DNA from: Ptychodera flava | Taxonomy: Eukaryota > Hemichordata > Enteropneusta > Ptychoderidae | Length of the DNA stretch: 64,000 nucleotides | Reading direction: 5' to 3' | NCBI RefSeq assembly: GCF_041260155.1 | Contig: NC_091931.1 | Coordinates: 9,777,861-9,841,860 of the forward strand | Shown here: positions 1,092 to 51,262 of the stretch, piece after piece | How positions within the stretch are numbered: position 1 is the first letter of the stretch | Layout: each line of letters opens with the position of its first letter | Notes under the pieces: model-generated | The model's database searches: none | The model's input: the letters and a program-made list of their open reading frames with translations, nothing else | Told to the model about the DNA's origin: nothing | Program-made: the position numbers and the translations under genes

Positions 1092-3358
1092 TAACCGATA
1101 GAGGTTGTTTATCGCTACATTATATCAGTATATTGAAACTTGTGATGAAAATAAAACAATGTGAAAGAAACCCTCTTTGGGGATAGGAATGGCCAACTGT
1201 GCAGTATATCATAAATATATGCACAGTCGTGACCATCTGGGCGAATCAGAGCTCACTGTTAACAGTCTTACTTTTAATACCATACGGTAACACGAGAGAA
1301 TCTTTTATCGCTGAAAACTAATCACCATTAATTCACAATATAGCTTCTCCTAAGATAGATGGCTCGACAACACTTTACCTTATTTACCAGAAAACAAGAG
1401 ATCATAACCAATTTGTCGAAATTATTTTACAACGCAAAACACTATATACTCCTAATGAGGATTGCATTTTTGACTGGGTACTAAAATTCAATAGCAAAAT
1501 AATTCTAGAACTAAAACCCTAAAACCCGAAAAGCCAATCTTACCGATAACATATTCAAATTACGCAACTAAAAAGTCAACAGAAGGCGAACAAAACACTC
1601 TATACAACAGGCAAAAAGAAGGTGAGACAAACCTCAGAAAATGATAAAAAGGGTTATATTCCCTTTGACACCTCAATGTTTGAAAAGCCTAGTAAGTGAA
1701 TCTATCGATATATCATTAGTTTCTTATCATGGATGACATTTAGACAATGTTTGACCCTCACTCCCTTGAAGCATAGACCCTAAAAACGGACGTTTTAAGG
1801 TTCATGCTTGAAGACACAATTCCAGCAGCATGACCGAATCAGAGAGACCAAATTAATCTACCTTTCGAGTTAGATCAGCCTCCAGAAGCCGAGAAAAAAG
1901 AAGTCAACATAATCAGAGTCAAGCGAACTAGACAACGGCTTTACACATTATACTCCACAGAGAGGGCATTCTTACATAACTCACAAAAAGCATTCAAAAG
2001 CTTCGCTTTAGCATTTTTCGCGATCCAAGGGACTGGGCGTGGCTAGTTGCTAGGCAAATGCAAAATATAAGTCATGCTGAATCAAGGTGTAATCAAGTAA
2101 TAGATTATTTATAGATTGAGAAAATCCTAATCCTGACAGTAATGATGAAATACAAACTTTGTAAAAGGGTGAGAAAATGTGCCGTTTCTTAGATTTGTAT
2201 GTTGTACATTCCATGTTGTACAGTACTGCCTGTACTATACATGAACAGTTTACACATTTGGCAAGTATTCTGTGCTGTTTTTCAATAGTCAGGTCCCCGC
2301 AGTCCGAGGTAAGTTTCTGTATAGTGTCAACTATTTTCTTCGATTACTGTAATCTACTCAAATACATTTCCACTTAACTCATTTGTATGATTACACAGGG
2401 AAGCCTACCTCTCACAATCTAACATTTGAGATATTTGACAATAACATGTATGCAATTTTCATGTTTTTCATAGGCCTAAATAACACACCGGAGAAAGTCA
2501 TACTCAATGTTTTGCCCAATCGAAAATCAAATTTTCACCGAAACAAGTAGAGGTAGCCATCTGTAAGCCAAACAAGAATTCACATAAGCAGAGTTGGATA
2601 TTAATTGAGCCATTCCCATTTCCGTCCCAGTTACTCATACAATGGGGTATAAGCGAGATATGGTACCTTCATTACAGCAAAGAGTATCGAATGTGTTGAA
2701 ACCCAAGTGGCTCCTATTCAGTACCACGTAGCCTACAGATACATTTTAAAGGCATACTTACAAGGCCAAAATACCGAGTGTTGAATTCCTTCAAAAGTGG
2801 CAACACCTGGAAAGTCACCGTGGTAACCAATTTGTCACCCCGATCTCTAAATATTTACCAGTACACCCAATAAAGCACCGGGACACAAGACAGTTGTACG
2901 TCACAAAAATTAAGAGAGAGATCGAAGAAACTCACTACACGGAACGCAGGATGAAAGACTGCAAAGACAATTCTTCAAATAGGCAAAAAGGAGTCTAAAA
3001 CAACACAAACATTCACAGCAACGACCATAGGTCGGGTTTTTTCCTATACTACGGTACAAAACCAAACCAAAGGGCCTTTCAAAGGCAACCGCACTTCCCT
3101 AAAAGCCCGGCTCGAAATGGACCGGGATCAGGATTAATGCCAAGTTTGGTTTTGCGTTTTGGGGCATGGCTCTACATAATTATCCTGTTGCTAGCGGTGG
3201 CAATCGTTCGCATTATCTGCGTAATCTGTTTGCTCTCAAATCACGCTCAGGCTCGGACTAAAATTACGTACAGCCTTCGTTTCCCGGTTCGTTTCAGTTA
3301 TGCCATGGCAATACTCGAAAGAAAAAAGAAAGACAGAAAAACTATCAACTTCATCAAA
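1092..3358. other. No gene recognised; A-rich, repeat-like
   Basis: The stretch has a strongly A-rich + strand with no convincing exon. A 78-codon frame at 3137-3373 begins with a hydrophobic run (FGAWLYIIILLLAVAIV) and could be a signal anchor. It abuts a reversed LINE scrap and has no donor site or homologue I recognise, so I do not call it a gene. Confidence 0.4.
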
Positions 3359-8091: not shown

Positions 8092-8120
8092 TTTCAACCA
8101 CGGTCCCTCCGTGTTTCAAC
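8092..8120. mobile_element. Excision-footprint-like micro-insertion, 15 bp, 7-bp TSD
   Basis: A 15-bp insert (8099-8113), CACGGTCCCTCC followed by GTG, lies between two perfect copies of TTTCAAC (8092-8098 and 8114-8120). The insert consists of the TIR tip of the 1.5-kb element at 29783-31288 plus the last three bases of the opposite end. An element this short cannot move by itself, so I read it as a scar left when a longer copy excised. Confidence 0.8.
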
Positions 8121-8519
8121 CTCGTATTGAACATTAAAAATATGATATTTTATTACTCATTCAACTCACTATTCAAGATAAAATATCGTTTAGCAAATTA
8201 GCTTTATCCTTGGTAATTGATTGTTTCCCTCGCTGCTCGATCGCCAGAAATGAGTACATACGTTCTCTACCTAGCCTCATGGCATGGAAGTGCTGATGAA
8301 TAATAACTTTGGGTCAAAGGTATTGAAGTGTCCAATCAGGTTCGTGCACAGAGTCCAAGGCCATGACCTACTTCATGTACTTCTGCACTGTTTTGATTTT
8401 GCTTCGCCAAGAAACGTGTTCGTCATTGTCCATAGAAGTATGTTTGCTCTCCTTTGAGGTTGTTTGTGAAACAAATTCCGGGATAGGCCTTGGAATGCAT
8501 ACGATCGGCATCGCGGCAG

Positions 8520-8645
8520 TGCATGTAGCTAGCCCTACGAGTATGACGAGAGTGTCCGGCTTTGGCTACGCCGCCTCCCACCTCCGGTAGGCGGCGTAGC
8601 CAAAGCCGGACACTGTCGCCATACTCGTAGGGCTATGCATGTAGC
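8520..8645. mobile_element. MULE-like foldback element with 10-bp TSD
   Basis: The element (8530-8635, 106 bp) runs from TAGCCCTACGAGTATG to CATACTCGTAGGGCTA. Its arms are near-perfect inverted repeats of about 45 bp (also CCGGCTTTGGCTACGCCGCC and its complement). It is flanked by perfect TGCATGTAGC (8520-8529 and 8636-8645). A 10-bp duplication with long TIRs is typical of Mutator-like (MULE) non-autonomous elements; the superfamily is inferred. Confidence 0.85.
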
Positions 8646-8729
8646 GTACCATGCTTGTGTAACTGCCGAGCTCAACGTGCATTCACGGTTGATACTCGTG
8701 TACAATCATGATGTGTTCAATTCTGATGA

Positions 8730-10430
8730 AGATTCATAAGTCTTACTTTTGCAGTCTTTTTTCCGTACGATAATCCCGACAATACGTGTTACTGTTGGCA
8801 ATGGGATATACTTCCAAAGATATGTCGGATTATTGAAATACACCTGCAGACTGATTATACAGCCAATGTTTACAATATCGCGCAACGCATGTTGATGTCG
8901 CCGAACACCAGCAATACAAATGCAAAAAATGAACAAATTATGTATGCATTCAAAAATCGAAAACCACACAATGGCAGCATACAAGGAGCAATTATCTCCA
9001 GATAATATGTGTAATTTTTTATTTACATAGTGGCAGCAATAAGCATAAATAGGCGAGCGATGTAAATGGGGTCGGTAAAGCATTGCAGCCGGTGAAAACG
9101 CCGTTGTTATCTATAGGGTATTCTGCATGTAAGGCGCTGAATTACTTGCGTCTGTAACAATGTAAACTTTAAAAAATTAAAGCAAAACTTCAAAAATCTT
9201 AAACCATACAATTGAAGTGCACAACATCAAGATTATTTGTGTATTTTTTAAAGTCAATAGCTGAAGGAATAATAATCTCCAAGCGAGCGATTGATTCGGG
9301 ACCGGTGAATAATCACAGCCGGTAAATATTTTGTATGGGCTTGGGAGTAATAAATTACGTCGCCGAATCACGACAGTAAAATGTAAATTTAAATAAAACC
9401 AACGCAACAGCAAAACATCGAAAATAATACCCTTGTAGGACAGTATCTTAAGATTATAGATTTAGATTTTACATTCATAGCTGAAGAAATAAGTATCTTG
9501 AGGCAAGCGATCGGCACGGTAGCGGCGAAGAATTTACAGCCGATAATACTGGGTGCGGGAGGGAGGGAGTAACGTATACGCGTACGTCGCCAAATCACGA
9601 GAGTAAAATGTAAATTTACACGAAACTAACGGAATATCCAAACATCGAAAATAACACCCTTGTAGTACAGTATCTCAAGATTATAGATTTAGATTTTTAC
9701 ATTCAAAGCGGGTGAAATAAATATTTTGAAACAAGCGATCGGCACGATAGCGGCGAAGCTGGTAGATCATCACGCCCATTGTTTTCTATGGGGCGCGAGT
9801 ATGTGTGTTGCCGAAAAATTGAAGGCGGTAAAAATGTAAAAATACAATAATTTGAGCCAATATTTAAAAATCGAAAACGATACGATTGTAGAACGACATC
9901 TAAAGATTACGGATTTAGATTTTTACATTCGTAGCTGATGAAATAAATATATTGAAGCAAGTGATCGGCACGATAGCGGCCATGAATTTGCAGATAGTAG
10001 ACGCCATTGTTTTCCTATGAGGCGCGGGCAATGTGTTTTTTGTCGAACTACAGACGGCGGTTCAAGTGTAAAATCACAAGAATTTAAGCATATATTTAAA
10101 AATCGAAACGATACGATTGTAGTACGGCATCTCAAGGTCTCAGGTGTGAATTTTTGTATTTATGAATGAAACACTAAAAAAATTGAAGCAAGCGATCCAC
10201 AAGGTACCGACGACGGCGCAAAAACCATTGTTTACTATGGGAATTTTTCGTATCATTCATCCACACTTGCAATACCTAAAACTCGCCGGTTCAATTTTTT
10301 CATTTTTTGCACGAAATGAAAGAAAAGACACAATCGTTCGGATGTTCATCGTAACAAAAATCGTATCGTTTTCGATTTTAAATTACGCCTTACTTTTCTT
10401 GTACGAATTGGTTTCAGGGCTTAATTAGCA
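8730..10430. repeat. Degenerate tandem array, about 227-bp unit, about 6 copies
   Basis: A marker like AAAAATCGAAAACGATACGA recurs near 8943, 9192, 9414, 9641, 9867 and 10099. A second marker, like CAAGCGATCGGCACGATAGC, recurs near 9050, 9280, 9505, 9731, 9957 and 10189. Spacing is 222-250 bp. The middle copies are closest to each other. Short open frames here are accidental. Confidence 0.8.
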
Positions 10431-11334
10431 GTGGTGCTGTACGCGATTCGGACATAACCGCTTGTCTGTGTCAGCATAATTTTGGCAGAATTTTCGTAAT
10501 TTATTTTATATGTAAGTAAAATACTTACATATACGTTTTCATGTATATGTATACTATATATTTAGAGAATCTTTAGGACAATGCTAGCGTGAAACGGCGG
10601 CAATAGCGTTATATATTTCTGACGGGCGTCAACGTCCATGAGACAGCGTGTCGCTGCCGTAGTGGGCTCATGAATAATTCATTAGGACGACTACGCGTGA
10701 AACAAATTGGCTGCCAAAAAACCCGTAGTGTGTAGGCAAAAGTGTGACGGGGTCGAAGTGACTTGGGTACCTGGGGCCATGGTAAAAAAAACTTTTTACA
10801 TCCATGCTGGGGCCGACCAAAACCAGTGTGAATTACTGGGGTCAAAGCGGACAGCGGCCGGGATGACGTGTTCCCCAAGCGAGCTACCTTCAGAAGTCTG
10901 TTTCATCGCAAAAAACGTCAACTTTTAAAACCAGTCATTTATTTACTGATGTTATTCTCAGCATCACAAACATATACGCCTCTGCTATGTATCACAGCAA
11001 ATAGTTATATTTGAGCGCCCCGTAAATGGGATCCTCGTTTTTTTGCGAACCCGGAAGTGTGTCTTGCTCAATGCATTTCCTACCCATAGCGAGGGAAACT
11101 GCCCGCGTTCCCATGCTCCCATGCACCCTTTTTCAATGCCAGTGCAACGCCATCTGTGCAAAATTTGTGGTGGTATGCTCCCGTGTGATGGAAAACCTCT
11201 CTTATTCTAACAATGACTTAGTTGACTTTGGACTTCGATTTCGTAAATGTGATGTCCATGCAGTGAGTTTGGGTTGGCGCGCTTATAATGCAATCTTCGC
11301 CCGCCTGCGGTCCGATATCCCGCATTTATTAGCG
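10431..11334. other. No gene recognised
   Basis: A 120-codon frame at 11026-11388 is the longest open stretch. It has no recognisable domain, runs into the repeat at 11335, and shows no splice or promoter context. I leave it uncalled. Confidence 0.35.
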
Positions 11335-11893
11335 ATATTTATCTGTTTTGACTTGACCAAAGTTGGCAAAACTTGCTATGTACATTAAAGATACTATGAT
11401 ACAAGATTATTGAAAGTCATTTGACATTTTTTTCAGCCAATTCCCAATATGCATATTTAATGAACCTTCCAAATTAGGGATATATACTGGCATTTACTTG
11501 ATAAAATTTGGCGAAACATGCTGTGTACATTGATCATTATACCAGGTTATAACAGTATTGAAAGTCATTTTGCATTTTCATGTCAGCTAATTCATAATTT
11601 GCATAAATAGCTAACAAGCTTTCACGGTTTGGCATATAGAGCTTGAAGGACTTGACCAAAGGTAATTACACATGCTATATTGTGATACAATGACAGTACT
11701 CAAAGAAATTAGTTATTTTTATTTCAGCTAATTACATATTTGAATACTTAATGACCTTTAGAATTGATCTGTGGTGAAATTCATTGTGTTGATCATAACA
11801 CTTTAAATGTAGCAAAGCATGTAGCAAAGGTTCAAACTTGCACATAAATGCAATATATAATGAAACACGTGAGCATTTTCAGTTCATATCTGG
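11335..11893 (+). mobile_element. Partial 'GCTCACGTG' family repeat, 3' part
   Basis: It contains diverged units of the family's internal tandem repeat ('AGCTAATTC...TTTGCATA-TTAATGA', near 11449, 11598 and 11735). It ends with AACACGTGAGCATTTTCAGT and TCATATCTGGTT, the same 3' terminus as the copy ending at 47444. The 5' terminus is absent. It lies directly upstream of a candidate splice acceptor. Confidence 0.65.
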
Positions 11894-11903
11894 TTCTTGC
11901 AAG

Positions 11904-11958
11904 ATATTTAGATTACGACGTCTGCCATATTTATGATTTGCTAATATCAACAAAGGAG
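11904..11958 (+). CDS. RTK gene, candidate ectodomain exon
   Basis: Read with one leading base, the stretch gives YLDYDVCHIYDLLISTKE and ends in phase 0 at a strong donor GTAAGT. It joins in frame to the exon at 12253. The acceptor (TTCTTGCAAG) is weak and lies about 10 bp after a repeat end, so the 5' boundary is unsure. Confidence 0.4.
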
Positions 11959-12252
11959 GTAAGTTTAAATAAGAGACACCTGCCGTTTATCGTTTATTGT
12001 GTGGATAGAGGGACTGTGGTCGAACGCATGAAATAAACTAAACCTCTTTAGACGAATTAAACAAATTTGCAGCGAGTTTCTCTTTTACATGTTTCAAAAC
12101 AACAACCTGACCATGTATTACAAACTCCCTTTCGATTCCACACAGTAGGTAACACTTAGTTGAAAAAAGCAGTAATATTTACATATACATCTAAATTAGT
12201 AAACGTAACATCACCTTAACAGTTAATTTTGCTTGATGATTATTTTAAACAG

Positions 12253-12378
12253 ATTCACCATGGCAATACAACGGTTTGCCTTGTCTACAATCTCACAGTA
12301 AATGTAAATGACATCACAGGGTGGCCACCTTACTTCAACGAATCGTGCGCCTGGCCTGTTCGGAAAGCTGGCAGATAC
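12253..12378 (+). CDS. RTK gene, ectodomain exon
   Basis: This 126-bp exon has acceptor TTTTAAACAG and strong donor GTAAGT. It is phase 0 at both ends and open in one frame only. It encodes 42 residues including NTTVCLVYNLTVNVND and WPPYFNESCAWPV. Two Cys and potential N-glycosylation sites (NTT, NLT, NES) fit an extracellular domain. The family is not recognised. It ends in phase 0 while the next exon seen needs phase 1, so one exon is probably missing between them. Confidence 0.65.
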
Positions 12379-12920
12379 GTAAGTTAATTCTACAGGATTG
12401 ACTGAACTTATAAATCACCGGCTCTAATAGTATTCAGACCCCTTCAAACGCAACTGAACGTTTAATTGCTGATTGGTACCAATTAATAAATATGACGAAA
12501 TAATGGATTACTTAGTTTAGATATAAAGGTCGTGCAAAAGATAGAGTATATTTGTTAGCCTCGAAGAGAGTAGACAGCTGAAGTTGAGCAACAAATTTAG
12601 ATTCGAAAATCGACACCAGTCGAAGCAAAAATGCTTATAGATTTTTGAGGAAAAGCCCCTATGTTGTAAAAATATAAAAAGATGTCAATTGCGACCGGGA
12701 TGCAAACAATCATAAAATGTTTTAATGAATCGTTTAGTGGTTCTAACACATACGTGTAATAAGGGATCAGTAGAAAGTGAATAATGAAAGCTACTTCAAT
12801 AGAGTTATACAAAAAAAAGAATACCGTTTCCACACGACATAAGAATGGCAGGATGGCCGATAGCTAGCTAATACTAGGGGTTATTACACGAAGTTTTGGC
12901 GATACCGCGTCTTATTCGAG

Positions 12921-12977
12921 TGATGTGTCCGTATTTTGACAAGTTGCGTAGCAACGAGTCAAAATACGGACACATCA
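12921..12977. repeat. Perfect hairpin, 20-bp arms
   Basis: TGATGTGTCCGTATTTTGAC and its exact reverse complement enclose a 17-bp loop that itself holds TTGC/GCAA. No target duplication is apparent. It is followed by two copies of GGTTATCAAT. It may be the tips of a deleted TIR element. Confidence 0.8.
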
Positions 12978-14836
12978 CGGTGGTTATCAATGGTTATCAA
13001 TGGTTATGACTGTTTTTCTACAGACAGTCCTAAATTAGCGGCGAAATCAACTTGAAATCGATCTTGTTTCCTCTAGGCTGTACTTATAAGAAGTTGGTTG
13101 CTAAGGAGTGATGACAACCATATCACTTCTTTATATTATTGCGCTATTGGGCCATTCCGCTTCAAACGAGGGTTTGTGGAGCACTTTTAAAGCAAATCAT
13201 TTAAATATTACGATGTCGACACAGGTTTTCACAATTTGAAGTAGATTTATTTTTAGTTTAAAATGACGGTGGGTGTAAAACATAGGCGGGAGTTTGTAAA
13301 ATGGATGTGTTTTCGTTTTTTTATACATAAGCTAATCCCTGCGTGAAAGTTATGAGGCCGCCAAAATCGGGTCAAAATACTCGCGCCACGCCAGCGCGCG
13401 TTCGATTTCAAACTCAATCGAGTATGAACAGCTGAGAGCATGGAGCAAGCAGCTCTGCAACATCTATGAATATGTCGTGGATATAATACCCTTACCAGTC
13501 AGTTTATCTCGAAGAATTATGTCATGTCCCCAGACGTCAAATATGCCGAATTTACCATCTTAGTTAGCGGATTGGGGAAAACATGGAGTGAGTACATGTA
13601 AGCTGTAGTGTCGTAACTCGTTCGTGATTTTGTTGCTGTGCGAATATAACTTTTCAAAGTATTTCCGTCGTCTGCTCGTATATTTTCGTTCCTGACTTGC
13701 CTAAGTAGAACTAAACTTCCTTTAAGAACATAAACGAAAGTTTGACTTTCCTTAGATATTTCATTGTATCTAAACCCCGCATCCAGTCGCACCGGTGCCA
13801 ACAGACACGATCATGACCTGCGAATCTCACTGACAGGTACAAATCGGAAATATGATGTGCACCTTCAACCTTGTCTGTCGCGAGTATTTTCAGTGCGGTT
13901 GGATTTTTTGTGGAATTTTTAAGTTTCCTTATATCATTCTCAATAATTTAAGATATTCTCAACAACCGCTTAATATCGAATTGTTTGTAGCTCCGCTAAA
14001 TAATCGTAGCTGAAGTACCTGCAAATATCTCAACGTTGGCTACTTTGGCCACCAAGCAATCCCACACCTTTATCTGCTTGTTTGTAGAAATAACCATTCG
14101 ATGGGAATTTATCGTGTTGAAAAATTGGTGCTAATATAACTTTAGACATATGAGTTGATGTTATTCGTAACTGGTGTTTTTTGACTGATTCTGAGTTAAA
14201 TGAATTCTGTTAGTTTTCTGCAATCTTACAATAGTATGTTATTTCGAGACAATTTGCTAGTTTGCTATGATCTAAATCATTATCTCTAGATCTCGAGATG
14301 GGTTTTTTATTTTCTCTAACAGAAAGATGTTATCACTTTTTAAATCCCGTATTTTAAAAATCTGTATTTTTTCTAATTAAATTGTAATTTTGTTACTAAG
14401 TTCCTATTCTGAATTTCATTGCAGCCGTTTCCTGTAACGTATTATAATGAGTTTTGGGACTACAGAGATTCATACTGACCAATTTAGTAGATAATTATAA
14501 TATGGTACTGGATTTAAGTAATGACATGTGTAAGTCGAGATCCAGCATATTTTAGATTATTTCCTTTATAATGACTCTCATGTTATTGCTGAGATGTAAT
14601 GATTTGCCTTTCTCTGTACGTAATCCTTTCTGATGTTACATTTCTGCACTTTCAAATGTCCTTAATACAACAGAATACCGTTTACAGAATATATTTTATA
14701 CACTACATTTCGATGGTATTTATTTCAATACAGTGGTATGTATTTTCTTTGTCGGACGTATAGCCTAAACGCTTGTGTCGTGAATAATATATATAGCGAG
14801 TTCTATCCATGCTGACGATATTCTGTTAATTTACAG
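12978..14836. other. RTK intron sequence, no other feature recognised
   Basis: The sequence is AT-rich with short frames only. At least one small phase-adjusting RTK exon may hide here; none could be supported. Confidence 0.35.
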
Positions 14837-14994
14837 GTTCACTGAACATTTACCTACCGGACACTACTCAATTTCTCGAACGATATGACTTGAAAGGTTT
14901 TGAATGCAGCAAGCTAAGTCAACTGACATGCAAGGATACCAAAAACAAGATCGATACAACAATGAAACCATTAACCGAATGCATGCTGCATAAG
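14837..14994 (+). CDS. RTK gene, ectodomain exon
   Basis: This 158-bp exon lies between TTAATTTACAG and GTAAAT. It begins with two bases completing a codon, then runs open for 52 codons (SLNIYLPDTTQFLERYDLKG, then Cys residues at FECSK, LTCKD and TECML) and ends in phase 0. Three Cys and no hydrophobic stretch fit an extracellular domain. The domain family is not recognised. Confidence 0.65.
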
Positions 14995-15287
14995 GTAAAT
15001 GACACATTAACGTACAGTTTGAAAGGAGGGTACTTCATTTGCATGCATAATTAGGGATTTATTTCAAATTCGAACAGCGCCCTCTAGCCAGTGAGTGACG
15101 GTTATGGCATTTTTCGCCACAATTTTATCCGCAGATATCTCAGCCTTAGTTTACCATCCGTCCTATTTCCAGTTAGCGGCTGAATTGTACACCTAGTGTT
15201 CGCCGATGAATTTTTGTTGGGTTTTATCGATTCGTTCTTGCGGTTTGCCTTATTTTCATGGTTTTCGAGCGATCGAAAATGCCGTTC

Positions 15288-15326
15288 ACTAAACCACGGT
15301 CCCTCCTGGAGGGACCGTGACTAAAC
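15288..15326. mobile_element. Excision-footprint-like palindrome, 25 bp, 7-bp TSD
   Basis: The insert 15295-15319 is CACGGTCCCTCC, a single T, and the exact reverse complement of the first 12 bases. It is flanked by perfect ACTAAAC (15288-15294 and 15320-15326). It equals the two TIR tips of the 29783-31288 element with everything between lost. Confidence 0.85.
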
Positions 15327-15604
15327 ACTGCCGCAAAAGCATATCCAAAGTCAAATTTCCATGAGAAGTAAGGAGGGGACGTATCTTGAGTAGGTTCATA
15401 CGATCTGAAAAAATCTCAGTGGCTTAAGCTTCCGTTTTTGAAACACATCTCGTTGAAGTTGACTATGCAGCGACATTTATGTGTTAAATCTAACATGGCG
15501 ACCAGCGTGTACAGCGTGGGAGTGTACACGTAGACTCTTTCAGCTCTTTCTCGGTCCTCACCGGCTAATTTTATTCTCCACAGTTTCATCACAGTGTTCA
15601 GCTG

Positions 15605-15718
15605 CGTCAAGTGGTAGCCCTGCGTACGATGGTGTGTGTTCCCGGCGTTATACGGCCTCTCATCCATGTAACGCCAGGAACACACAGCGTCGTACGCAGG
15701 GCCGGCTACGTCAAGTGG
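15605..15718. mobile_element. MULE-like foldback element with 10-bp TSD
   Basis: The element is 15615-15708 (94 bp), starting TAGCCCTGCGTACGATG and ending CGTCGTACGCAGGGCCGGCTA. Its arms pair over about 35 bp. The flanks CGTCAAGTGG (15605-15614 and 15709-15718) are perfect 10-bp duplications. It is related to the element at 8530 by TAGCCCT ends and TSD length. Confidence 0.85.
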
Positions 15719-18513
15719 CAGTATACGAATTAAAATCAACAGTCAGTGGTTAGTACCGCACTTATGGGTTCAAACTTAAACTGGGTTCGATGTTAAGTGA
15801 TAACAGGAGAAATAAAGATAATGCTAATTACAAGTCGTATTATGACATTGTAGTCGCCAAGGCCAAGTCAAGTGTGGTATGATTATAATTATTGCATAGT
15901 CTGTGGATTCGAGAGACAGTTCAAGTGATTCAACTATGCACAGCGTTGTTTGTGAATGACTTGGCCGATCAGTTTCTCTTTTCCTTTACAAATTACATGC
16001 AATATTCACTTTATCTGAGTACAGCCACAAGTTGAGGTTATGCAACATCTGTTGTCAATTAGATCATGAAAAACCATTATAAATATTTAGGATTTTGATC
16101 CCATTTTAAAATACATGTTGCATGTATCAGATATTGTAGAGTACAATAACAAATGTGTTCTAGAGAGACAAATAATTTGGAGGTTAGGGTTGCCAAGCAT
16201 TTATAGTAAGTTGTATGGGGTCACATGGGTATGTAACCTGACCCTGTGATTAGTAAATTTGGTTATGCATCTTGAAGGTCTGCAGTTTGGATATTTGGAG
16301 ATACCTTGAATTTAGTCAGCATTGTTATTCCAGTAATTCTGTATAATTGCTTTTCATGGCTAAGGATCTGAGTTAAAAAAACACTACTAGGTCATATTGC
16401 AGTATCTTAATATATTTCACAACACCATGAACATGTATAACAATATAAGTACTAACACTTTCAAAAAAATCCTCTTGCAGTAAATATTTCTCTATCTTGT
16501 TTTGTAGTACATTATAGAGCTACATGGACAGTCCTGTTGAGTAACTTTCAGTGATATGCTGCTGAACTGTCTTTGATATTAACCTAAGAACAAATGCTTT
16601 CATTGCACTGTGAACAAAATATAATAATGATGCTAAAGCAAGAACAAAACCAAAACAAAACCCTCATACAAACTAGGTTTTTGGAGGAAATAGTTTGCCA
16701 AAAACAAGAGTAAAATCAAAACAACGTGAAAAGCAGTCTATAAGCTTGACTACATAAACTTTATAATGCAAGCGTTCATGACCTATACCTGCCTGAACTC
16801 TGATCACGTTGATCAATCATTTTATTGAATTACACTCACTTTGGTTTATTTTGCCGTTCAAAGTTCCGATACAAGTGGTGTCGTCGTAATGGACCCACTT
16901 TCGCCGGTAGTAAGCCGGCAGCTATCCGTGACGGGGTTGACCTTTGACCCGCATAGCGACGCACGCTACCCCCGCCGACAGATAGCTGTGTTTCCACAGC
17001 TAGATCGTAGCTAGCTCTGACCTCTGACATTTAAGGACAATCAACTTCCTGCTGTACGCACGCGCAACAAAGGGTCACCGGGTCAAAACGATACTACGAG
17101 TGCGCATAATATATCTCTAGGAGAGAACACGAATTGCTATAGTATAGTAGTAGACACCCGTCGTACTGACTAGCAGTGCTGTTTCGTTTATTAATGATTT
17201 TTCCGTTTTCGCATTCTAGTAGCCAGCAAGCATACAAAAACTGGGGGAAATAACATCGACCGCACAAAATCTCCGTGGATACATACGGCTACCCTGTATC
17301 CCGCACACGAGTACGCGAATATACATGCGGCTGGAATGATAGCCGTTAAACAGCTAGCAGCTGTGCGCTGCGGCCGTCTCTGCTAGCATTACCGTGCGTG
17401 CTCGAACTTGACTGGCTCATTTTATAACTCATGTAACTAGTGAAAAGTTTGGGTTTTTTTAAATCTTGATGGTCATAATGCGACATTAATTAAATACTTT
17501 GTTTATATATAACATCAGTGACCCGATTAGAGGAGTAAACTTTGAAAAAATGGAAGATCAATCGTGTAACGCCCGTGTGTACGACCAGTACTAGTGGTTT
17601 GGAGTGTACGTAGCATACCGGGTGTTCTTATATTCATAGACCCTCGAGATATACGTATACAGCGGTATGGTAACTGGATGCCAACATTCAACACTGCCGC
17701 AAATACATGTCCATGGTCACACGGTCATAAATGAAAATTTCACCAAATGTTGATAATTGTTAAATGAATATTTTCTGATATTTTCGGCTTGGCTTAAGGC
17801 CTCTAAGGTCATTATCGAGCTGTTTTACGAAAACGGTGAAGTTTACTTCCGCATTTGGCGGGTCGACCTCGCCACACACTTTGTAGCGATTTAAATAAAA
17901 TCTACCAAACTTTTGTGAGTTTACTATAAGAAAATAGATCATTAATATATATGCTACAAGTGAAAGCAAAAATTATGGTTCTAGCTATTGTACGTTTTGC
18001 TGCACGTCGATATTTAAAGACCACCCTTTCGCCGTATTTTATCCTGCACTGCAGTGGCGGTCAGCGTAAACAAAAACGAGGCTCTACAACATGAACTTTT
18101 ATGCAAATTTCATCGGCTCCTTTCAGACTGGTATGCAAATGATATGTCAAATGCGCCGACTAAAACACGGAGACTAAAACTTAAGCACGTCACGCATAGT
18201 TTTGATGTGCTTATCACATCGTCAATCAATGAACGTTGATACCACACAACCCTACAATGTCAACCTTATCGCTTTAAGCAAGTTAAAGTAAATTATATTG
18301 ATATATTTTATACGTATCATATTCCACTAAACATCATGAACACCGCGACCTCAACAAAATGAGATATTGATTCGAAGCAGTTTATTTTCTCTTTGTCATA
18401 GAATCTGATTAAATATATTAATCAGCAACACGATAAGGTTTCTGAACTTCACACAATTACACACTCTACTCATATATGAAATTTGGTATAACAATTGCAC
18501 CATTTTTGCACAG
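15719..18513. other. RTK intron sequence, no other feature recognised
   Basis: I see no exon, repeat terminus or RNA gene. The stretch at about 16840-17400 is more GC-rich than its surroundings but holds only broken short frames. Confidence 0.35.
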
Positions 18514-18682
18514 AATAGCGATAAATTGCCAGAGACGATCTTCAAGGTTTTGAAGTATCACAGAATGTATGCGCAGGTGTGTATGTGCACCATAGCATAC
18601 GACTCATTCCTTATCTCTGAGCTTAGGCCACTTGAATGTCCGTTTGGAGAGGGAGCAGTTACTTTTCAAGCGAAATCTTTGG
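18514..18682 (+). CDS. RTK gene, ectodomain exon before EGF 1
   Basis: This 169-bp exon has acceptor TTTTTGCACAG and strong donor GTAAGT. It starts in phase 0, matching the exon ending at 14994. It encodes NSDKLPETIFKVLKYHRMYA, then CMCTIAYDSF and LECPFGEGAVTFQAKSL, and ends in phase 1, as the following EGF exon requires. The Cys-rich end leads into the EGF module. Confidence 0.75.
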
Positions 18683-19033
18683 GTAAGTGTGCAGTGTGAG
18701 TAGCTGTTTGTAATAAAAGCTAACGATATTCACAATCTATGTGCTAAGCAATCATATGCATTTTGTTTAGAAATGTCATCATGATTTCTATGACCTGTAT
18801 ACGTCAAAAATCTAATCAACACTGGACTTGGCGGATGAACTTCCTGGCATTAGCCTGGTTCTGTTGCCCATTGATGTGTTTATGAAAAATAAAAACAGGC
18901 CACGTTCTCTCTGCCGTTATAGTTCACCATAACAGATACTGTAACAATCTAAAGAAATCGCACTTTTGAATGGTTTAAATCCTTCATCAATACCAGGCCG
19001 GCTGATTATATGCTCGTGTATTTCTATGCCTAG

Positions 19034-19162
19034 GATGTTCAGATGGAAAATATGGTGGTCTCTGTCAATTTGATTGCGTTTGTAAAAATTGGGCTACATG
19101 CCACACATTCAACGGCGCTTGTAAGTGTCAAGCTGGTTAGAAAGGAGTCGCTTGTGACATTG
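19034..19162 (+). CDS. RTK gene, EGF-like exon 1 with in-frame TAG
   Basis: This 129-bp phase 1-1 exon is flanked by TATGCCTAG and GTAAGT. It reads an EGF-like module: GCSDGKYGGLCQFDCVCKNW, then ATCHTFNGACKCQAG, a stop, then KGVACDI. All cysteines of the fold are present. The stop TAG (19138-19140) occupies the Trp of the 'C-C--GW-G--C' signature that EGF 2 of this gene has intact (CMCSSGWKGRHC). A single TGG-to-TAG change explains it. Possible explanations are a nonsense allele, a pseudogene, a sequencing error, or UAG-to-UIG (Trp) editing of the transcript. Only the last three are consistent with the open kinase exons without invoking very recent loss. Confidence 0.85.
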
Positions 19163-19725
19163 GTAAGTGCTTAACACTGTAATGTTAGACCGATTACATT
19201 CATAACAAGGGCAACAAAGCGAAATCTTTAATTTGTAATCCCATTCAATCATGCCGGAAAATGCCGAGAGAGTTTGACCGGTTAAGAAGGGCTTGACTAC
19301 GCAGTTTCTGCGTAGTGAAGCTTCATTACGTATTCATGGTGACCCCTGGCCAGCTGTCAATAACTTTGGGGGCTTTTGTCTTTTGGCCTGCTTTGCATAT
19401 GCGTCGTTGGACACGACCTGCCAATCACCCAGGTAGTCAATTAAACTATTAGTTGACTGTTTACCGACCCAATTAACACTATCCAGCAGTATTCAGTCAT
19501 ATTTTAATCGCGTGGCCCGGGTGGGCACAACGTAGGAACGCGTGTATTTCTATGTGTACGTTTCACTTGTGGTGTTGTTTGTACCATGGAGGTAGGAATG
19601 TTTGTACCATCGTGCGTTTGAAGTAAGCTTACTTGTTTCACCTACAGCATTACCTTTAAGGTGACAGGCTAACTATTAATGTTCAGTATCATTGCACCGA
19701 GTTCTGCCCACGGCGAAAACCACCT

Positions 19726-19765
19726 GTTTTGCCACGGTCCCTCTGTGGAGGGACCGTGGTTTTGC
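19726..19765. mobile_element. Excision-footprint-like palindrome, 26 bp, 7-bp TSD
   Basis: The insert 19733-19758 (CACGGTCCCTCT, then GTGGAGGGACCGTG) is bracketed by perfect GTTTTGC at 19726-19732 and 19759-19765. Read on the other strand the target is GCAAAAC, matching the AAC-ending targets of the other copies. It is nested in the 2.9-kb TIR element. Confidence 0.85.
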
Positions 19766-19862
19766 CTACTAATTACTGCCCGTCGCTGCCCGTCCTGAAT
19801 GTAGCCTATCTATAGCTACAGTAATCAGTCAATATATAATACCCCGCGCCTTATAATTTTTA

Positions 19863-19905
19863 TATAAACCACAGTCTCTCTATCCACGAGGGACTGTGTA
19901 TAAAC
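19863..19905. mobile_element. Excision-footprint-like palindrome, 29 bp, 7-bp TSD
   Basis: The insert 19870-19898 begins CACAGTCTCTCTATCC and ends ACGAGGGACTGTG. The flanks are perfect TATAAAC (19863-19869 and 19899-19905). This is a diverged copy of the same tip-to-tip structure, only about 100 bp from the preceding one. Confidence 0.8.
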
Positions 19906-22179
19906 TTATAAAATCATAGTCCGTGCCGTAAAATTGTTGACTTTCGATGCGATATAGAGATTGATCGTTGAATCGCACCGGCGCATCCATATTTACTTGC
20001 CCCATAAGCTTACTACTCTGTAAAGGGTGGGTAGATGGAATTCCTGGGCCAAAAATGAACACCGGGGCGAAACTTTTTGTGAACCCATGTGAAAACATAA
20101 ATCATTTATCAGTTTTGATATATACTCCTAAATTGTAAGTTTGATCAAGGAGGTACCTCCATGGTTTGATCAAAATCGAGACCACATTCAAGGGCTATGC
20201 AGAGTGTCCATGTACGCACACACAGTGACAAGAAGGCGGCAAACACCTACTTACCAAGCACATCGAATCGGCGAAAAGAAGCATAAAAAAGCTATAGGCT
20301 CATCGCCAAAACAAACGCGCCAAGCGCTAACAAAAACCCATACCAAGCGGCCCTTTTCAGGGCCACCAAACACTCCAAAAAGAGAACTACCCCCCAAAAA
20401 ACCCATAAAATGACATAGAACACACAAACACTTAAAAGAAATAACAAAAATCGTACACATAAAAATAACGTGACAGAAAAAATGGCTGTGGAAATAAATC
20501 AGCTATTTCCAAAGAAAAGCCGACAACAACATGAAATTCAACAACAACCTATCATCGCTCAAACTATGAAACTCCGAAAAATAGTACTAGGCAAAGGCCT
20601 TAAAATTAATTCGGACGCCAACAAAACCAAACAGAATAAAACCACCTCAGGATTTCAACAAATAAAGTCGTAAAATGTGACTACGCTACATCGTGAGACA
20701 CAAACAATCGCAACAACACAAATTCAAAGAAAAGTCAAATTGGGCTCCACAAACAACAAACACCAAAAACTTGAAAGCTATCTGAAGCTGCTAAACTCGC
20801 ACTTCTAGAGATACCCTTTCAAACAAGGAAACAAAACATGTCGCGTGCTAAAAGAATCGCGATAAACCAGCTTGCAAACAATAGACAAGTTTCGGAAAAA
20901 AAAACCCTCGACAAGGGTCGGGTTTTCGTCATTGTCAACACAAACGATTACGTACTCGAATGCGAAAGGCAATTACGCAACACTCAGTATTATACACAAC
21001 AAGCCAGAACAAACAGTAAACAAAGTAAACGAACTATGAATCAAAATGTACGAGAACAAGCACATCAACCAGGATACTTGTGAGTATCTTGATCCAATAA
21101 ACATAAAATCCGTACCCCCAGTGGTACTTATTGCCTAAAAATTCACAAACCTCCGCAAAATCTAAAAGACACACCAGTCAAAACAAAATTTACCGAAGTA
21201 AAGAAACATAGAACAAACAAACCGAACCACCAAACGGACTCACAACGTGACCAAAAATTAATATACTTGCCTCGCTAATCGAAAAGCAAGACCACTAAAA
21301 TGCATTAAAATAAATTTTCACAAACACAAACTAAGGAAAGAATCTACACCGCGACTGATGAGAAACCACAACCGGGTTTCGAAACGCAAGCGTCAAAGGG
21401 CGACTCTATCAAATTTTGTAACAACATAGGTCCGGCTGCGTCTCGCCATAAGCTTTCCCCACACAAACAAAACATTACCGTACACACTAATCCAAACTTC
21501 TCTACAAATATCCAAAGCGAAACAAACATTTTTATTAACACACACAATCGGATAAGAATGTAGGAACACATTTTCGAAACGAATCAAACACAAACTCGAC
21601 ACAAAAACATTTAGGATAGTTAGATGGGGAGCCTCTTTCACATTTTTTACATCTCGCTATACTGTCTATGATTCTAAAAATAAAGTCATCTGCCACTTTT
21701 TCTGTATACGCGGTTTGGCAAAACTCATCTCTTCAATCGAAAGTCGGGCGATTTCATGGTTCTTTGGGGTACGTCGAGCTTAAGGAATGTGGTTATATTC
21801 GCGATGTTTTATTCGAAATTATTTATTTCTTCTAGGGCAAATGCACGTAATTCATGCTGTTGGAAATACTGGCCGCTCATAAACAAGACAATAAACTCGA
21901 TATCTGTGCATCTTTACTTTTATTGTCAAAGTACCATCGACACCCAAAAAAAACCAAATGGTTCAGTCCACGCGTGGGTTCAGTCCAGGTATTTGCAACG
22001 CCAGTCACCTAGGCGACGGTAATCCGCACCACTTATCACCATCGGGAAGGTACTCCTCCCCCTATACCACTGGCGATCCCACCCTCAAGGCACTGCGTCA
22101 TTCGACCAAGCATTGTTATTGTAATTTTCTGCATAAAATTAACAGCGAGGTCAACCGGTCAAACTCTCTCGGCATTTTC

Positions 22180-29597: not shown

Positions 29598-29782
29598 GTA
29601 AGGTTTAAGACCATTGAGTATTCAATATTATTATTATTTGTGAACCTTTTATAAAATCTTATATCAGGCGGATTGAACGATGTATGAAGTTATATATATG
29701 GCTGTTTTTACCGTATTAATTTTGTAAAAGAATATTTGACGATAACTATATCAATTAACAAAATTGCAATGATTACTCAAAC

Positions 29783-31288
29783 CACGGTCCCTCCACAAAA
29801 CGGTCGGGAAACGCAATGTATTTCTATTGTCCTGATGCGCGTTGCGCTTCCGTTACACCGTTTATTCGCGTAAAGAGATTATCGTGGCTTGAAGAGTGAC
29901 ACCATTTTTACCTGACATGCAATGAACTAAAGGACAATTCGCATGCGTTACATAGGCTGTGTTTCGTATTTACACGTGCTGGTTTGACTAGACTACACTT
30001 GCAGTCAACACCAATGTAATCATTACAGCCATGATTTCATTTCTCTTGATGACAAGACATCGATTTCAACACCATTTCAGAGGAACAGAGTGAAGAGGTC
30101 TACAGTGTTCCGATTGAAGTTCACATGCCCCGTCCGTGAAAACGAGTGTATAAGTGCATGGAGCCAGCGGTTTTCGAGGACATATGACATCGAAACAAAA
30201 ATGACCTTTCTTAAATGTAAATTTTCCTATTATATTCGTATCGGCATTGTTTTAAAGCTACCGGGAGACCTGTGTGACACATCAAGCACATGCCTCGATA
30301 GGGCTTTATGACACGCCAGAAAAATTGCAATGGGGTTTGAATCAAAACAATATTTTTCACGTAAAATTCCCGCCAATGGATACGTTTGATCACAAAAAAT
30401 TGCGTCGTCAGTTTATTTTAAATGGTGTTACAAGTACCAAATCAAGAAAATCTACATTAAAATACCATGTAGTACGCAAGGCACAGCGATCAGAAAAGAT
30501 TTCAAAGAATCGAACATCGACTCCGCGAGGGTCCCAAAAACAAAATGGCGTTCGGCCGAATTTGGGTCATCTGCTTTTCTATCCTTACTTTATACTTTGA
30601 TTTGCAGTTATTGAATCTCTATAATAAGTTGAAAATTGCTTCAATCAGATAAATAGGTCCCAATCGAACATATTTGACCAGTCATCAAAACGAAAAAACG
30701 ATGAATATTTTGACTTCACACAACACGAACACAGATCGTCAGTGGACGCCATTTTCTAAATTGCCGAGCAAAGCATTACACAATAAACTATCAGTTTGCG
30801 TCTCATTATAAACCTTTATTCAAAAAGTGGGTTCGTCAGTTTAATTTTACGTATACTTTAATTACAAAAACAGACATCGGAATGAAACAGACCGTCATAA
30901 TTTTGCAGTGTAGAGCGAACAAAAATTCATGTTCTCCTGACACGTTATCAAAGACGCAATTCAATGAAAATGACCTACACACGATAGCGTGATCAAACGA
31001 AATCGCTGAAAATCGATTAGGAATAAAATGATCACCCACTTTCCTCATCATGAAATACTGCTTATCGAGAAAATACTGAAGTTTCAAAGTAGCTGTACAC
31101 TTTACGGTCGATTCAGGCTAGTTTCTTCGTCGAAGACGACACAACCGTACCCACTCTTTGACGGGACGCTACAGCTGGTGTGACGTCATCAACAGCGAAC
31201 GCCAGCGCAACGCGCATCCTACCAGCTAATCCCCTCGTTCGCACGTTTTGACAATAGCGTTTCCCGACCGTTTGGTGGAGGGACTGTG
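29783..31288. mobile_element. P-like non-autonomous DNA transposon, 1.5 kb, 7-bp TSD
   Basis: Left end CACGGTCCCTCCAC then AAAACGGTCGGGAAACGC; right end is its inverted copy with about two mismatches (TIR about 31 bp). Perfect CTCAAAC duplications flank it (29776-29782 and 31289-31295). The tandem copy at 31331-31585 holds the same site unoccupied (GATTACTCAAACTCTAGG), confirming the insertion and TSD length directly. The interior has no transposase; its short frames are not recognisable. 31-bp TIRs and a 7-8-bp TSD recall the P superfamily, but no transposase is present to prove it. Confidence 0.85.
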
Positions 31289-31585
31289 CTCAAACTCTTG
31301 GAACATAAGGGCAACATGTTAAATTGTCAACAATGATCAGGAAGAAATACACGAGGTTATGAGGGTAAGGTTTGAGACCATTGAGTATTCAATATTATTA
31401 TTATTTGTGAACCTTTTATAAAATCTTATATCAGGCGGATTGAACGATGTATGAAATTATATATATGGCTGTTTTTACCGTATCAATTTTGTAAAAGAAA
31501 ATTTGACGATAACTATATCAATTAACAAATTTGCAATGATTACTCAAACTCTAGGAACATATAGGGCAACATGTTAAATGGTCAA
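31289..31585. repeat. Tandem duplication of juxtamembrane exon end plus intron
   Basis: About 255 bp (29563-29782 plus 31296-31330) is repeated at 31331-31585. It covers the exon 3' end (NDQEEIYEVMR; NDQEEIHEVMR in copy 2), donor GTAAGG, the whole short intron and the start of the kinase exon. Copy 1 has lost the acceptor AG (CTCTTG), while copy 2 keeps CTCTAG. Copy 2's exon end has no acceptor of its own. Splicing from copy 1's donor to copy 2's acceptor still yields a normal junction. Confidence 0.85.
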
Positions 31586-32542: not shown

Positions 32543-35500
32543 ATGGGGGTCAAACGATGCGCTTATCCTCTCTGTAGAAGTGATTCACGGTATCAGCACA
32601 GAGAGTACATGACAGGTGTGTCCTTTGTGCGATTTCCGAAACCAGTTACACAACCGGAAAAATGTGATCGTTGGATCCGAGCTTGTTGTCGTGCCGACGA
32701 CTTTGGTAGGCATCGGATCACCCAGGACACCTACGTTTGTTCACGGCATTTCGTTGGTGGCAATGGTCCGACTGAGGACTATCCAGATCCGATACCTGCT
32801 ACTGCAAGGGGACCAGAAGTGAGGATTTTCGAGCAAAGAAAAGTGAGGCCACCACCCAGAGATCGAACGTCGCCAGCCATCGAAAAGCGGAGAAAGATAG
32901 TGAAATCACGGGTGAGTGTCATACTTAGATCGCGTTGTTTACCCTTGCCTTGTTAGCTCGTATGCCGCAGTTGTGAGTTATGCTGGATCGTCGATACCAA
33001 ATCTGCAACTACGTCACACCTATTCATGGAGGTATAAGTCTCCTCCCTCCATGGTCTGTAATAACTCAGTGCAGTGTACATTTATCGCTTCAGGGGCTAG
33101 GGGTATACGTTATCATCATCACATGCATTTGTTTTCCCAGCGATGCTGTGGATTTAGAAGAATAATAAACCTGTTTCTGTACATTCTGCTAATAGTTGCT
33201 TTGAATGGTTTTCAGATTGGTCCCACATGACAGCACTAACAGCAGGCGTGCCAAACCTTTGTAGTTTATCACACCCCAACATGGTCCATCGTCACCTTGT
33301 CGATTTTTGTATTTGCTTGTTTGTTTTAGTTTCATTCATTTCATGTTATTTCCCTCAGGTCACGGTTAACAATGAAAACGAAGGCACAGTCCCTTCAACA
33401 AGCTGCCAAGTAAGCCTGTGGCTGCTGTTCCTATACTGTCTTTGAGGCCAGTCAACACTACACATCAAAGTTGTGGTATGTATACTACTCAGCTTGTCTT
33501 TTTATGTTAGATTAGCATAGAATATATTTAGTTCTTGTTTTCAATTTATAAATTTTCTTCTGATTATTAGCTGAGTATTTTTCTCATTTTATCATAAAAA
33601 ACTCTGAAGTGGATTATTTTTATCTTATTCTGAAGAGTTTTCATTTTGATATATCAAGCAGATATAAGTGAAAAAATAACAAATAGATACATAATTTATA
33701 AATGTATAAATATATACATAAATAAGTAAATAATTAATTAATTAATTAATATCAAAACAGTATAATATATTTCACAGTAAGTGAAAGGTGGGGAAAATTT
33801 GAATTTCAAATAAATTATGAGAAATGTTTTGCATTCTGATGAAATTGTATTGTTAATTTGTATAACCTGTAATTGTTGGTTATTTCATTGAGAGGGACTG
33901 TGGTATAATCAGTATTTTTCCATATCATATAATTTTTATCATATTAAAGGCACACCAAACCCTGTCAGTCACAAGACACCAAGTCCTGTCATCTGTCACA
34001 AAGCATCACAAGCCACATCATCAAAATGTGATGCAGTTACCCAGACAGATATCACCATTGAGCATCTGAAGCCCTATTCTGACCAAGCATTGACTGACAC
34101 AAAGATCATGAAGCGACATATGTTTATGCGGGATGTGAGGAGAAACAACAAGTCATGTAAATTTTACACAGGTACAAACTTCATTTCTCAGAGTCTTCAA
34201 ATACTCTTTTGAATCAAAAAATAAGAGGAACAGATGCTATAATTTTTATGTATTTTTTAAGTGCTTTCACTTTATGCATTTAATTTAGTTTCTTGCTCTA
34301 CTCCTAAAACATGTTGAAATGCAGTTTACAGTGTACATGTGAATAAAGAATTGTTGTTCACATTTGAATTTTGGTCTTGACTATTATTTGTCAACAATAA
34401 TCTTCAATAACAGTATTGATGGTGTGTTTATCAGACAGTTTCTGGGTATCTTAACATGATTTAGGGAGTAGAGCAAGCAACTGAAGTAAATACACAGACT
34501 AAAATCAAAACAAATATATTTTAATGTGTATTTTCTCTGTAGGTTTGGTTTCACTACAGATGCTGATGTATTTGTTCAGATGGATTCAGGCTAAGGCAGA
34601 AAGGATAACATTGTGGAAAGGAGAAAGTACATCTGTAAGTACATTTAGTATGAACAACACAGCCTGTATGTGGAATGTGATAGTTCAGTTTTGTAATATT
34701 CTCATTGGCTTAATATATTAGTTTATAGGCCTGAGCACATGGGGTCATATCAAGTGGTAGTAGCACTGGAGGTCAAAGGCCAAATACCAATTCCTTTTCA
34801 ATATTGGATTTACAATCTTTCATGCTATCTTTTACAGAATGTTCCCAGAATAAAAGTGGCTGTGGACGTGCATTGACTACTTTTGAAGCGTTCATAATGG
34901 TTATGGTGAGATTGCGGAGAGGTCTGGATATAGACCATCTTGCAGATGTTTTTGGGGTTTCTTCTGCAACTGCCAGTCGATACTGTAACACGTGGATTGA
35001 GTTTCTGTTTAAAGAATTGTCTTTCCTCATAAAATGGCCTACACGTGATCAGATACGAGCTTCTCTTCCTAAATCATTTAAGAAATTCAAAAAAACAATT
35101 GCTGTTATTGATTGCACAGAATTTTTTGTTCAAAAGCCATCTATACCCTCATCACAGAGAATTACTTGGTCATCATACAAACATAACAATACTTTCAAGA
35201 TTTTAGTTTCAATATCTCCTAATGGTGCCTTTACTTTTGTTTCTGATCTGTGGTCTGGCTCAGTATCTGATCGACGTTTAGTGCAAGACAGTGGTTTTTT
35301 AAATAATATTAATGCAGGTGATGATGTAATGGCAGATAGGGGGTTTCTTATCCGTGATTTACTAGCTCTTCGGGGAGCTACTTTGAACATCCCTCCATTT
35401 ACGCACGGAAAACAACTCAGTAGTGCAGCTGTGACAAAGACCAGGCGGATAGCCAGTGCACGTATCCATGTGGAAAGGGCAATTGGGAGACTGAAGAATT

Positions 35501-37120: not shown

Positions 37121-37181
37121 ATGGTACTTACATATGCATTTATATTTGCAATTATTTATCAATTATATCACATGTATATCC

Positions 37182-49257: not shown

Positions 49258-51262
49258 AAATATTCAGGGGAGTCAGACAAGGAGATTGTATACCACCAAT
49301 GTTATTTGTGCTGGCTTTGGAAATTTTTTTGATTTCTCTCAGGTCTGAGAAAAATATAAAAGGTATTGATGTACATGGGGAAGAGATTAAAATGCTTCAT
49401 TTGCAGATGATCTTACTTGCTTTATACAAGATGTAGATTCTGCAAAAAATCTCTTTAAATTATTGGACAGATTTATAAGTGTTTCAGGTCTCAAAGTAAA
49501 TATAAATAACACTGAAGCTATGGGGCTTGGAAAACAAAAAAATTGTAACGATAAACCTTTGGAGGTAAAATGGACAGATGACCCAATTAAAGTAGTTGGA
49601 ATTTACATTTCATACGAAAGAGAAAGAGCTCTCCATATGAATTTTGCAGAACCTTTAGAAAAACTCAGATGTAGCTTAAATTTTTGGAAAAGTAGAGACC
49701 TGACTATTCTGGGGAAAAATTCAAATAATTAAAAGTATGGGCATTTCTAGAATTCAGTATGTAATGAATATGATTGAAACTCCATGAAATGATTTGAAAA
49801 GTGTTAATTCTTTGATTTATAAGTTTCTTTGGAAGGGTCCTGATAAGATTTCTCGACAAACAATGATTGGTACTGTAGAACAAGGGGGAATCTCTATGCC
49901 AGATATTATAACAATTTATAAAGCTCAGCGTATTAATTGGATTAGAAGACTTTGTGATTCTGGTATAAGAAACCCGTGGAAAAGAAATTATAAGAAAGAA
50001 TTGGAAAGAATTGGCGGTAAATAAATTGTAATTTTAATGTTAAGAAATTATCTGTGAATTTTTGTAATTTTCTCAGATGTATGTTACAGGTTTGGTCTGA
50101 AGTAAATAATTATGCAAAATATGATGAAGAAAGTGTACTTAACCAAATAATCTGGAATAATCAAAACATTTTATTTCAGGGGAAATCCATGTTCTATAAA
50201 GAAATTCTACGATCAAATATTTTGCATTAAGGACAATTATTTGATCAAAATGGTAAAATTATTTCATGGGAAAAGTAAGACAAATGGGAGTTCCAAATTC
50301 ATCTGTGTTGCGATGGTTTGGAATTATTAATACCATACCAAAAGACTGGAAACGAAAAGAAGATAAGCAGATGGTTGACAGTTTTAGAGTTCCTGGAAAA
50401 GAGGTTTTATTTGAGACTGGCATAGTGTGTAAAGAGATAAAATGTTGTAATACAAGAAATGTGTCCAAGTGGATAAATAATTGTAATTTTATTAATCCAA
50501 AATCTGAATTCTTTTTTACTAGAGTGTTTAATGAGTTTATTTAAGACTGGGATTCGTTGTATCAGTTACCTTATAAAGTGACAATTGATAATAAGCTGAA
50601 AGCATTCCAGTTTTAAGTACTGCATAATATACTTCCAACCAATGTAACGTTATCAAAAATGACGTCACCAAGAGTTAAATCTGAGAAGTGTACCTTTTGT
50701 GAGGAACAGAGTGAAACACTGGTTCATTTGTTTTATGAATGTGTATTTGTAGTGGAATTTTGGGTGGGAATTTATAGGGTATGGGGAAATAAAATTGAAT
50801 CATAGACAGTACTGTCTATGATTGAATTTCAGAGTCGCCCAACTATTAGACAAATTATTCTTGGAGATGGAAGATTTTCTTTATTTTTAAACTTCGTAAT
50901 CCTTGCTGCTAAAACTACATTTATAGATCAAAATGTCAAAACAAAAACCAAGTTCGGGTGCTCTCAAAAAGTATCTGCAAAATATTCAAAACTTGGAATT
51001 TCATATTGCTTACAAAAATATAAGTTGAACTCTCATCCTAGGAAATGGGACAGTTTTTAAGATTATAAGTTGTTTTCTTTTTCTCTTTCTCTCTTTCTCT
51101 TGTGTGTGTCAACTTGATATTACTTTTATTTACAAGTACACGACCTTTATTATAACCTTTATTCCTACATGAAAACCATAAGACATGTAAAAACAATCCC
51201 TGTAACAATTGGAAAATAACCTTTTGTAAACCTCAAGTAACCCAATAAAATGTTAAATACAG
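49258..51262 (+). mobile_element. 5'-truncated L1/Tx1-like LINE
   Basis: It begins inside the reverse transcriptase palm: RGVRQGDCIPPMLFVLALE, then the catalytic box SFADDLTCFIQDVDSA and SGLKVNINNTEAMGLG. It continues through WKSRDLTILGK, YKFLWKGPDKISR, GGISMPDIITIYKAQRINWI and a zinc-ribbon-like CTFCEEQSETLVHLFYEC (about 50690-50750) to a stop near 51060. The endonuclease and ORF1 are missing. Several frame changes and stops break it (for example the frame change between EEIKM and SFADD near 49390), so it is inactive. The 3' end with AATAAAATG abuts the next repeat at 51263. Confidence 0.85.

Follow-up and report, generated by a model that had tools for sequence, protein, structure and literature searches.

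Four short palindromes, each made of two transposon tips joined directly and each standing between identical 7-bp repeats, lie within a 64,000-nucleotide (nt) stretch of the genome of the acorn worm Ptychodera flava (NCBI RefSeq assembly GCF_041260155.1, contig NC_091931.1, positions 9,777,861 to 9,841,860 of the forward strand; hereafter the window), and they raise the question of whether such minute inserts were left behind by a departing transposon or arrived as they are. A first-pass annotation had proposed the former, placing them at 8099, 15295, 19733 and 19870, and all four were found there with the insert sizes and target-site duplications (TSDs) that it had given (Table 1). Our analysis indicates that these small palindromes are very probably excision scars of P-superfamily elements that were sealed by end joining. 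Four more scars, at 1772, 19585, 20146 and 50801, have tips that differ from those of the first four, which brings the count to eight scars with four tip sequences in the window.

The tips of the first reported scars are those of a 1506-bp non-autonomous element that is still in place in the window. The target region of this element is a short tandem duplication, in which 29563-29782 and 31330-31549 are 97.3% alike and the other flank (31289-31330 versus 31543-31585) is 93% alike, and the second tandem unit holds one CTCAAAC and no element. This empty site proves the 1506-bp element to be an insertion and, because the paralogue has a single CTCAAAC without an element, it also shows that CTCAAAC is a true duplication and that CAC..GTG are the true ends. 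With its CA..TG ends, its terminal inverted repeats (TIRs), which are 32 nt long rather than the 31 bp initially annotated, and its 15-bp subterminal inverted repeat, the element has the anatomy of the P superfamily. A Pfam scan of 4 open reading frames (ORFs) in it gave no transposase, and a BLAST search of the element against the window returned no further copy at E 1e-3. The claim that all four inserts carry the tips of this element had to be narrowed, since the tips at 19870 are variant and match a sister subfamily that ends at 12018.

Could such inserts simply be chance palindromes between chance repeats? A first scan (CAC..GTG ends, 8-60 nt, TSD with at most one mismatch) gave 6 matches in the window, two of them (4995 and 20429) chance-like, versus 0-3 in 10 shuffles, which on its own is weak evidence against chance. 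A tip-agnostic scan was then used, which demanded inserts of 12-40 nt that end in CA..TG, have arms palindromic to 75% or more and stand within an exact TSD of length T. At T=7 it returned six inserts (1772, 15295, 19733, 19870, 20146 and 50801), while no CA..TG insert was found in the window at TSD lengths of 4, 5, 6, 8 or 9 and none of the 15 other terminal dinucleotides gave an insert at TSD 7. None of 60 shuffles produced a T=7 match, the shuffle means being 0.35, 0.15 and 0.03 at T=4, T=5 and T=6. Relaxing the arm rule recovered 8099 and added 19585, and tolerating one TSD mismatch gave 7 CA..TG inserts whose TSDs were all perfect, among them an uncounted one at 10778. Chance can claim that short hairpins as such are not enriched (105 in the window, 6 of which, five being counted scars, have a 7-bp TSD, versus 77-105 in 8 shuffles) and that loose scans also return non-CA matches: 16 matches over all termini at TSD 7 (9 CA), 23 at TSD 6 (1 CA) and 11 at TSD 8 (0 CA, 9 TG). 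At every length from 6 to 10 bp, direct repeats are commoner than in the shuffles and therefore prove nothing alone; a maximal-repeat scan at length 7 gave 5 observed versus 0.65 expected, and 22286 and 46359, both among these five, are not CA..TG. The joint pattern is nevertheless limited to TSD 7 and CA..TG, and more than one locus, as well as the intact element, shares the tips (CATGGAGGTA, for example, is seen at 19585 and again at 20146 and 33025). Thus, chance is refuted for the set and is an extremely improbable explanation of it, while the single weak cases 20146, 19585 and 1772 could still be chance.

The duplications themselves point to the P superfamily. A 7-bp TSD was found at the intact element and at all eight counted scars, within the 7-8 bp of that superfamily. 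When seven TSDs (six scars plus the intact element) were compared with the 64 palindromic 7-mers, GTTNAAC was the best, with 29 of 42 positions against a random mean of 17.5 and no equal in 3000 random sets. The TSDs of the later scars 20146 and 19585 score 4/6 against this motif, a score of at least 4 being reached by 4.6% of window 7-mers. GTTNAAC with a TSD of 7 is also the target motif that Linheiro and Bergman describe for 1360 (Hoppel), a P-superfamily element of Drosophila, next to GTCCGGAC with a TSD of 8 for P and GTNCGNAC with a TSD of 8 for hobo (PMC3276498); since hobo is a hAT element, the GT..AC form of a motif is not by itself diagnostic of P. The likeness to 1360, an insect element, is one of TSD and motif, and the available part of that source says nothing of scars (PMC3276498). 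Galileo, another P-superfamily element of Drosophila, also makes 7-bp TSDs, with a palindromic consensus of the GTANTAC type, but its TIRs are very long, unlike those of the 1506-bp element (PMC4168063, PMC2775673), and the word footprint is absent from the available text of PMC2775673. The P-MITEs (miniature inverted-repeat transposable elements) of Anopheles are non-autonomous P derivatives and in this resemble the 1506-bp element, but they make 8-bp TSDs, and footprint is likewise absent from the available main text (PMC1562414). In P itself, a 31-bp TIR and 11-bp internal repeats (PMC7776569) are paralleled by the TIR and subterminal repeats of the 1506-bp element.

How would such scars form? 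A P-type transposase would insert elements like the 1506-bp copy into targets resembling GTTNAAC, with duplication of 7 bp. Excising them later, it would cleave the 3' strands where element and flank meet and the 5' strands some 17 nt further in, the cut stated for P transposase in PMC7776569. Each broken chromosome side would then keep the TSD plus a 3' tail of the element tip, and trimming of the tails followed by end joining would yield TSD-tip/tip-TSD. In this scheme we infer the transposase, its stagger of 17 nt and the route of repair; the arms can be measured. Across scars, assignable arms are 3-18 nt long, in keeping with a limit of about 17 nt per end. The earlier figure of 12-16 bases per side was too narrow for 8099, which retains 12 nt of one tip and just 3-5 of the other. 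At 19870, the left 18 nt match 12001-12018 with one difference (17/18) and the right 11 match fully, and our first impression of filler sequence was dropped once both arms had been assigned to the sister subfamily. The junction differs at every scar, and a 2-nt TA microhomology is one reading of the joins at 50801 and 20146, provided that their TIRs are given by the 21670 tip and the 19585/33025 tips, respectively. The scars are probably young, since none of the eight counted TSD pairs contains a mismatch.

The alternative that the first-pass annotation itself had raised is that ultra-short MITEs, as preformed palindromes of 15-35 nt, were inserted whole by a transposase acting in trans. Perfect TSDs and a retained target motif are what insertions show, but the eight inserts differ in their junctions and none resembles a copy of another. 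In addition, fly P reportedly requires more than 100 bp at each end, movement depending on at least 138 and 216 bp (PMC1562414), so that inserts of 15-35 nt should be immobile. This alternative fits more poorly than excision, and we consider it very unlikely. Altogether, the P-type excision that had been proposed is supported by the length and target motif of the TSDs, by inserts with CA..TG ends and arms of at most 17-18 nt, and by the junctions.

The closest known parallel is provided by the end-joining scars of P{wa} in Drosophila melanogaster (PMC2895639). These have the same TSD-tip/tip-TSD structure with up to 17 nt per side, and they include blunt, short-microhomology and small-insertion joins, classes that were also found here. 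They differ in having 8-bp TSDs and in coming from one element under laboratory induction, whereas the scars described here are natural and have several tips and 7-bp TSDs. A deuterostome P-type system with active excision is known from zebrafish (Pdre2/THAP9), whose TIR starts with CA but is 13 bp long and whose TSD is 8 bp (PMC10983969).

Several observations weigh against excision followed by end joining. One arm, at 19870, is perhaps 18 rather than 17 nt long, although the eighteenth may be an added base, and the 35-nt insert at 1772 is one above 2 x 17, with arms that are unassignable. Scars 6 to 8 are each weak individually: the palindrome at 1772 is imperfect (75%) and its TIR has no independent copy, the direct repeat at 20146 could alternatively be read as 10 bp, and 19585 was detected only under the relaxed arm rule. 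The 33025 tip pair, of the CATGGAGG family, lacks a 7-bp TSD. The compared P{wa} scars came from spn-A mutants without Rad51, whereas wild-type flies mostly yield longer products of incomplete repair synthesis (PMC2895639), so that the host would need to favour end joining. Excision by zebrafish THAP9 in fly cells is described as leaving larger flanking deletions (PMC10983969). Finally, a P-type transposase, which would combine a THAP domain with an RNase H-like catalytic domain that carries a GTP-binding insertion, did not turn up among the 24 ORFs scanned out of 86 listed ORFs of at least 80 amino acids.

Two rival explanations draw on these points. If the inserts were internal deletions from incomplete gap repair following excision, rather than directly joined tails, they would represent the usual wild-type fly product, and truncated copies may account for the solo ends at 12018, 21670, 33385 and 33902. 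However, no TSD-flanked copy of intermediate size, between 35 and 1506 nt, with these tips was found in the window and assignable arms end at 18 nt, making this explanation quite unlikely. The scars could also stem from a transposase that is not of P type but likewise cuts well inside its element and makes 7-bp TSDs, given that no transposase was seen in the scanned ORFs and that the P-superfamily label rests on the anatomy of scars and element and is not proven. Against this, GTTNAAC with a TSD of 7 and the junction classes agree with known P-superfamily data, so we regard it as unlikely and favour P-type excision.

ORFs with THAP and DDE_Tnp_4 matches do lie in the window, downstream of the 1506-bp element (32483-35607); they were rejected as the scar enzyme, since a separate element encloses them between its 107-bp inverted repeats. 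This element (31816-41210, about 9.4 kb) has inverted repeats at 31816-31922 and 41104-41210 that are 90.7% alike, and its ORFs (32.5-40.8 kb) match THAP, HTH_Tnp_4/DDE_Tnp_4, YqaJ and, weakly, SAP. Molluscs are among the marine animals that have close relatives of its proteins, and the YqaJ ORF has a 97% match over 73% of the query in Ptychodera flava. It was also dropped as the source of the scars: its inverted repeats are unlike the CACGGTCCC tips, and an adjoining 7-bp repeat is not visible.

Table 1. Scars, transposon ends and the intact element, in window coordinates (arms of scars 1 to 3 measured against the intact TIR).
Feature	Position	Strand	Structure	Remarks
Scar 1	8092..8120		TTTCAAC + 15-nt insert 8099-8113 + TTTCAAC	arms 12 and 3-5 nt, CC in common
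Scar 2	15288..15326		ACTAAAC + 25-nt insert 15295-15319 + ACTAAAC	arms 12 + 13 nt, blunt
Scar 3	19726..19765		GTTTTGC + 26-nt insert 19733-19758 + GTTTTGC	arms 11 + 15 nt, blunt
Scar 4	19863..19905		TATAAAC + 29-nt insert 19870-19898 + TATAAAC	arms 17-18 + 11 nt, sister subfamily of 12018
Scar 5	50794..50827		ATTGAAT + 20-nt insert 50801-50820 + ATTGAAT	tip CATAGACAGT
Scar 6	1765..1813		CTTGAAG + 35-nt insert 1772-1806 + CTTGAAG	CATAGACCC.../CATGAACC...
Scar 7	20139..20170		GTTTGAT + 18-nt insert 20146-20163 + GTTTGAT	tip CAWGGAGGTA
Scar 8	19578..19607		TTTGTAC + 16-nt insert 19585-19600 + TTTGTAC	tip CATGGAGGTA, other arm 3 nt
Tip pair, counter-example	33025..33053		CATGGAGG...CCTCCATG, 29 nt	without 7-bp TSD
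Solo end	12001..12018	-	CACAGTCCCTCTATCCAC	sister subfamily, flank GTCGAAC
Solo end	21653..21670	-	begins CATAGACAGTATAGCG	tip as in scar 5
Intact non-autonomous element	29776..31295 including TSDs (29783-31288)		1506 bp	TSD CTCAAAC both sides
TIRs of the element	29783-29814 and 31257-31288		32 nt	30/32 matches
Subterminal inverted repeat, left arm	29834..29848	+	GATGCGCGTTGCGCT	51 nt from element end
Subterminal inverted repeat, right arm	31204..31218	-		70 nt from element end
Tandem paralogue of target region	31330..31585	+	single CTCAAAC 31543-31549	empty site

Other candidates were left out of the count: 4995 and 20429 (imperfect TSD, not palindromic, chance-like), 21968 (part of an 11-bp direct repeat, in our reading), 30875 and 46949 (10-nt inserts whose TSDs match GTTNAAC at 1/6 and 3/6), 818 (a hairpin inside an AT-rich repeat) and the 33025 tip pair, for want of a TSD. 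The insert at 10778 was also dropped, its TSD scoring 2/6 against GTTNAAC; with its 29 nt and CATGG..CCATG ends in a perfect CTGGGGC repeat (10771-10813), it is a possible ninth scar. The solo end at 12018 has no partner end within 9 kb, and the solo tips at 33385 and 33902 pair up over 518 bp but lack a TSD. Four of the eight scars fall inside 561 bp (19585-20163), for which uniform placement gives a chance of about 0.0001 in a test picked after seeing the data; the cluster is a possible insertion hotspot.

Elsewhere in the window, two hairpin elements ending in TAGCCCTRCG (8520-8645, 106 bp; 15605-15718, 94 bp) each stand in a perfect 10-bp direct repeat (TGCATGTAGC and CGTCAAGTGG) and have related ends at 48434 and 56461; they are possibly MITEs of another superfamily. 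A histone 3' untranslated region stem-loop (Rfam RF00032) lies at 20344-20389, overlapped by an ORF without a Pfam match, and large inverted arrays of tandem repeats, with arms up to 619 nt at 95%, occupy 55281-59635.

P-type excision scars are already known from fly laboratories. A search of open-access literature (titles and abstract starts) gave no catalogue of natural P-type scars among the matches listed, nor any hemichordate example of a natural scar field that has several tips and 7-bp TSDs. No match listed in a text search for CACGGTCCCT concerned transposons by its title, the exact tip-to-tip pattern occurred 0 times in the viral contigs searched, and the phrase P element is not used in the available part of the genome paper (PMC11175523).

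The window holds 8 scars in 64 kb, which, if typical, would amount to about one scar per 8 kb. That the acorn-worm genome carries a dense, young field of P-type scars from several families, far outnumbering intact copies, is a proposition to which we give roughly even chances. Most DNA transposons leave scars of a few bases that are unrecognisable afterwards. In contrast, where the TSD is fixed and the scars measure 15-35 nt, they are countable genome-wide without knowledge of the element. For genomes with P-like elements such counts would yield excision numbers, the arm limit (the stagger) and the range of repair junctions, and would test whether flies and deuterostomes share P chemistry. If this proposition is true, the long P stagger of roughly 17 nt would characterise the superfamily outside insects too, and the scars would document how end joining deals with equivalent breaks in the germline under natural conditions. 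Such scars may act as a fossil record of P-type transposition far outside insects.

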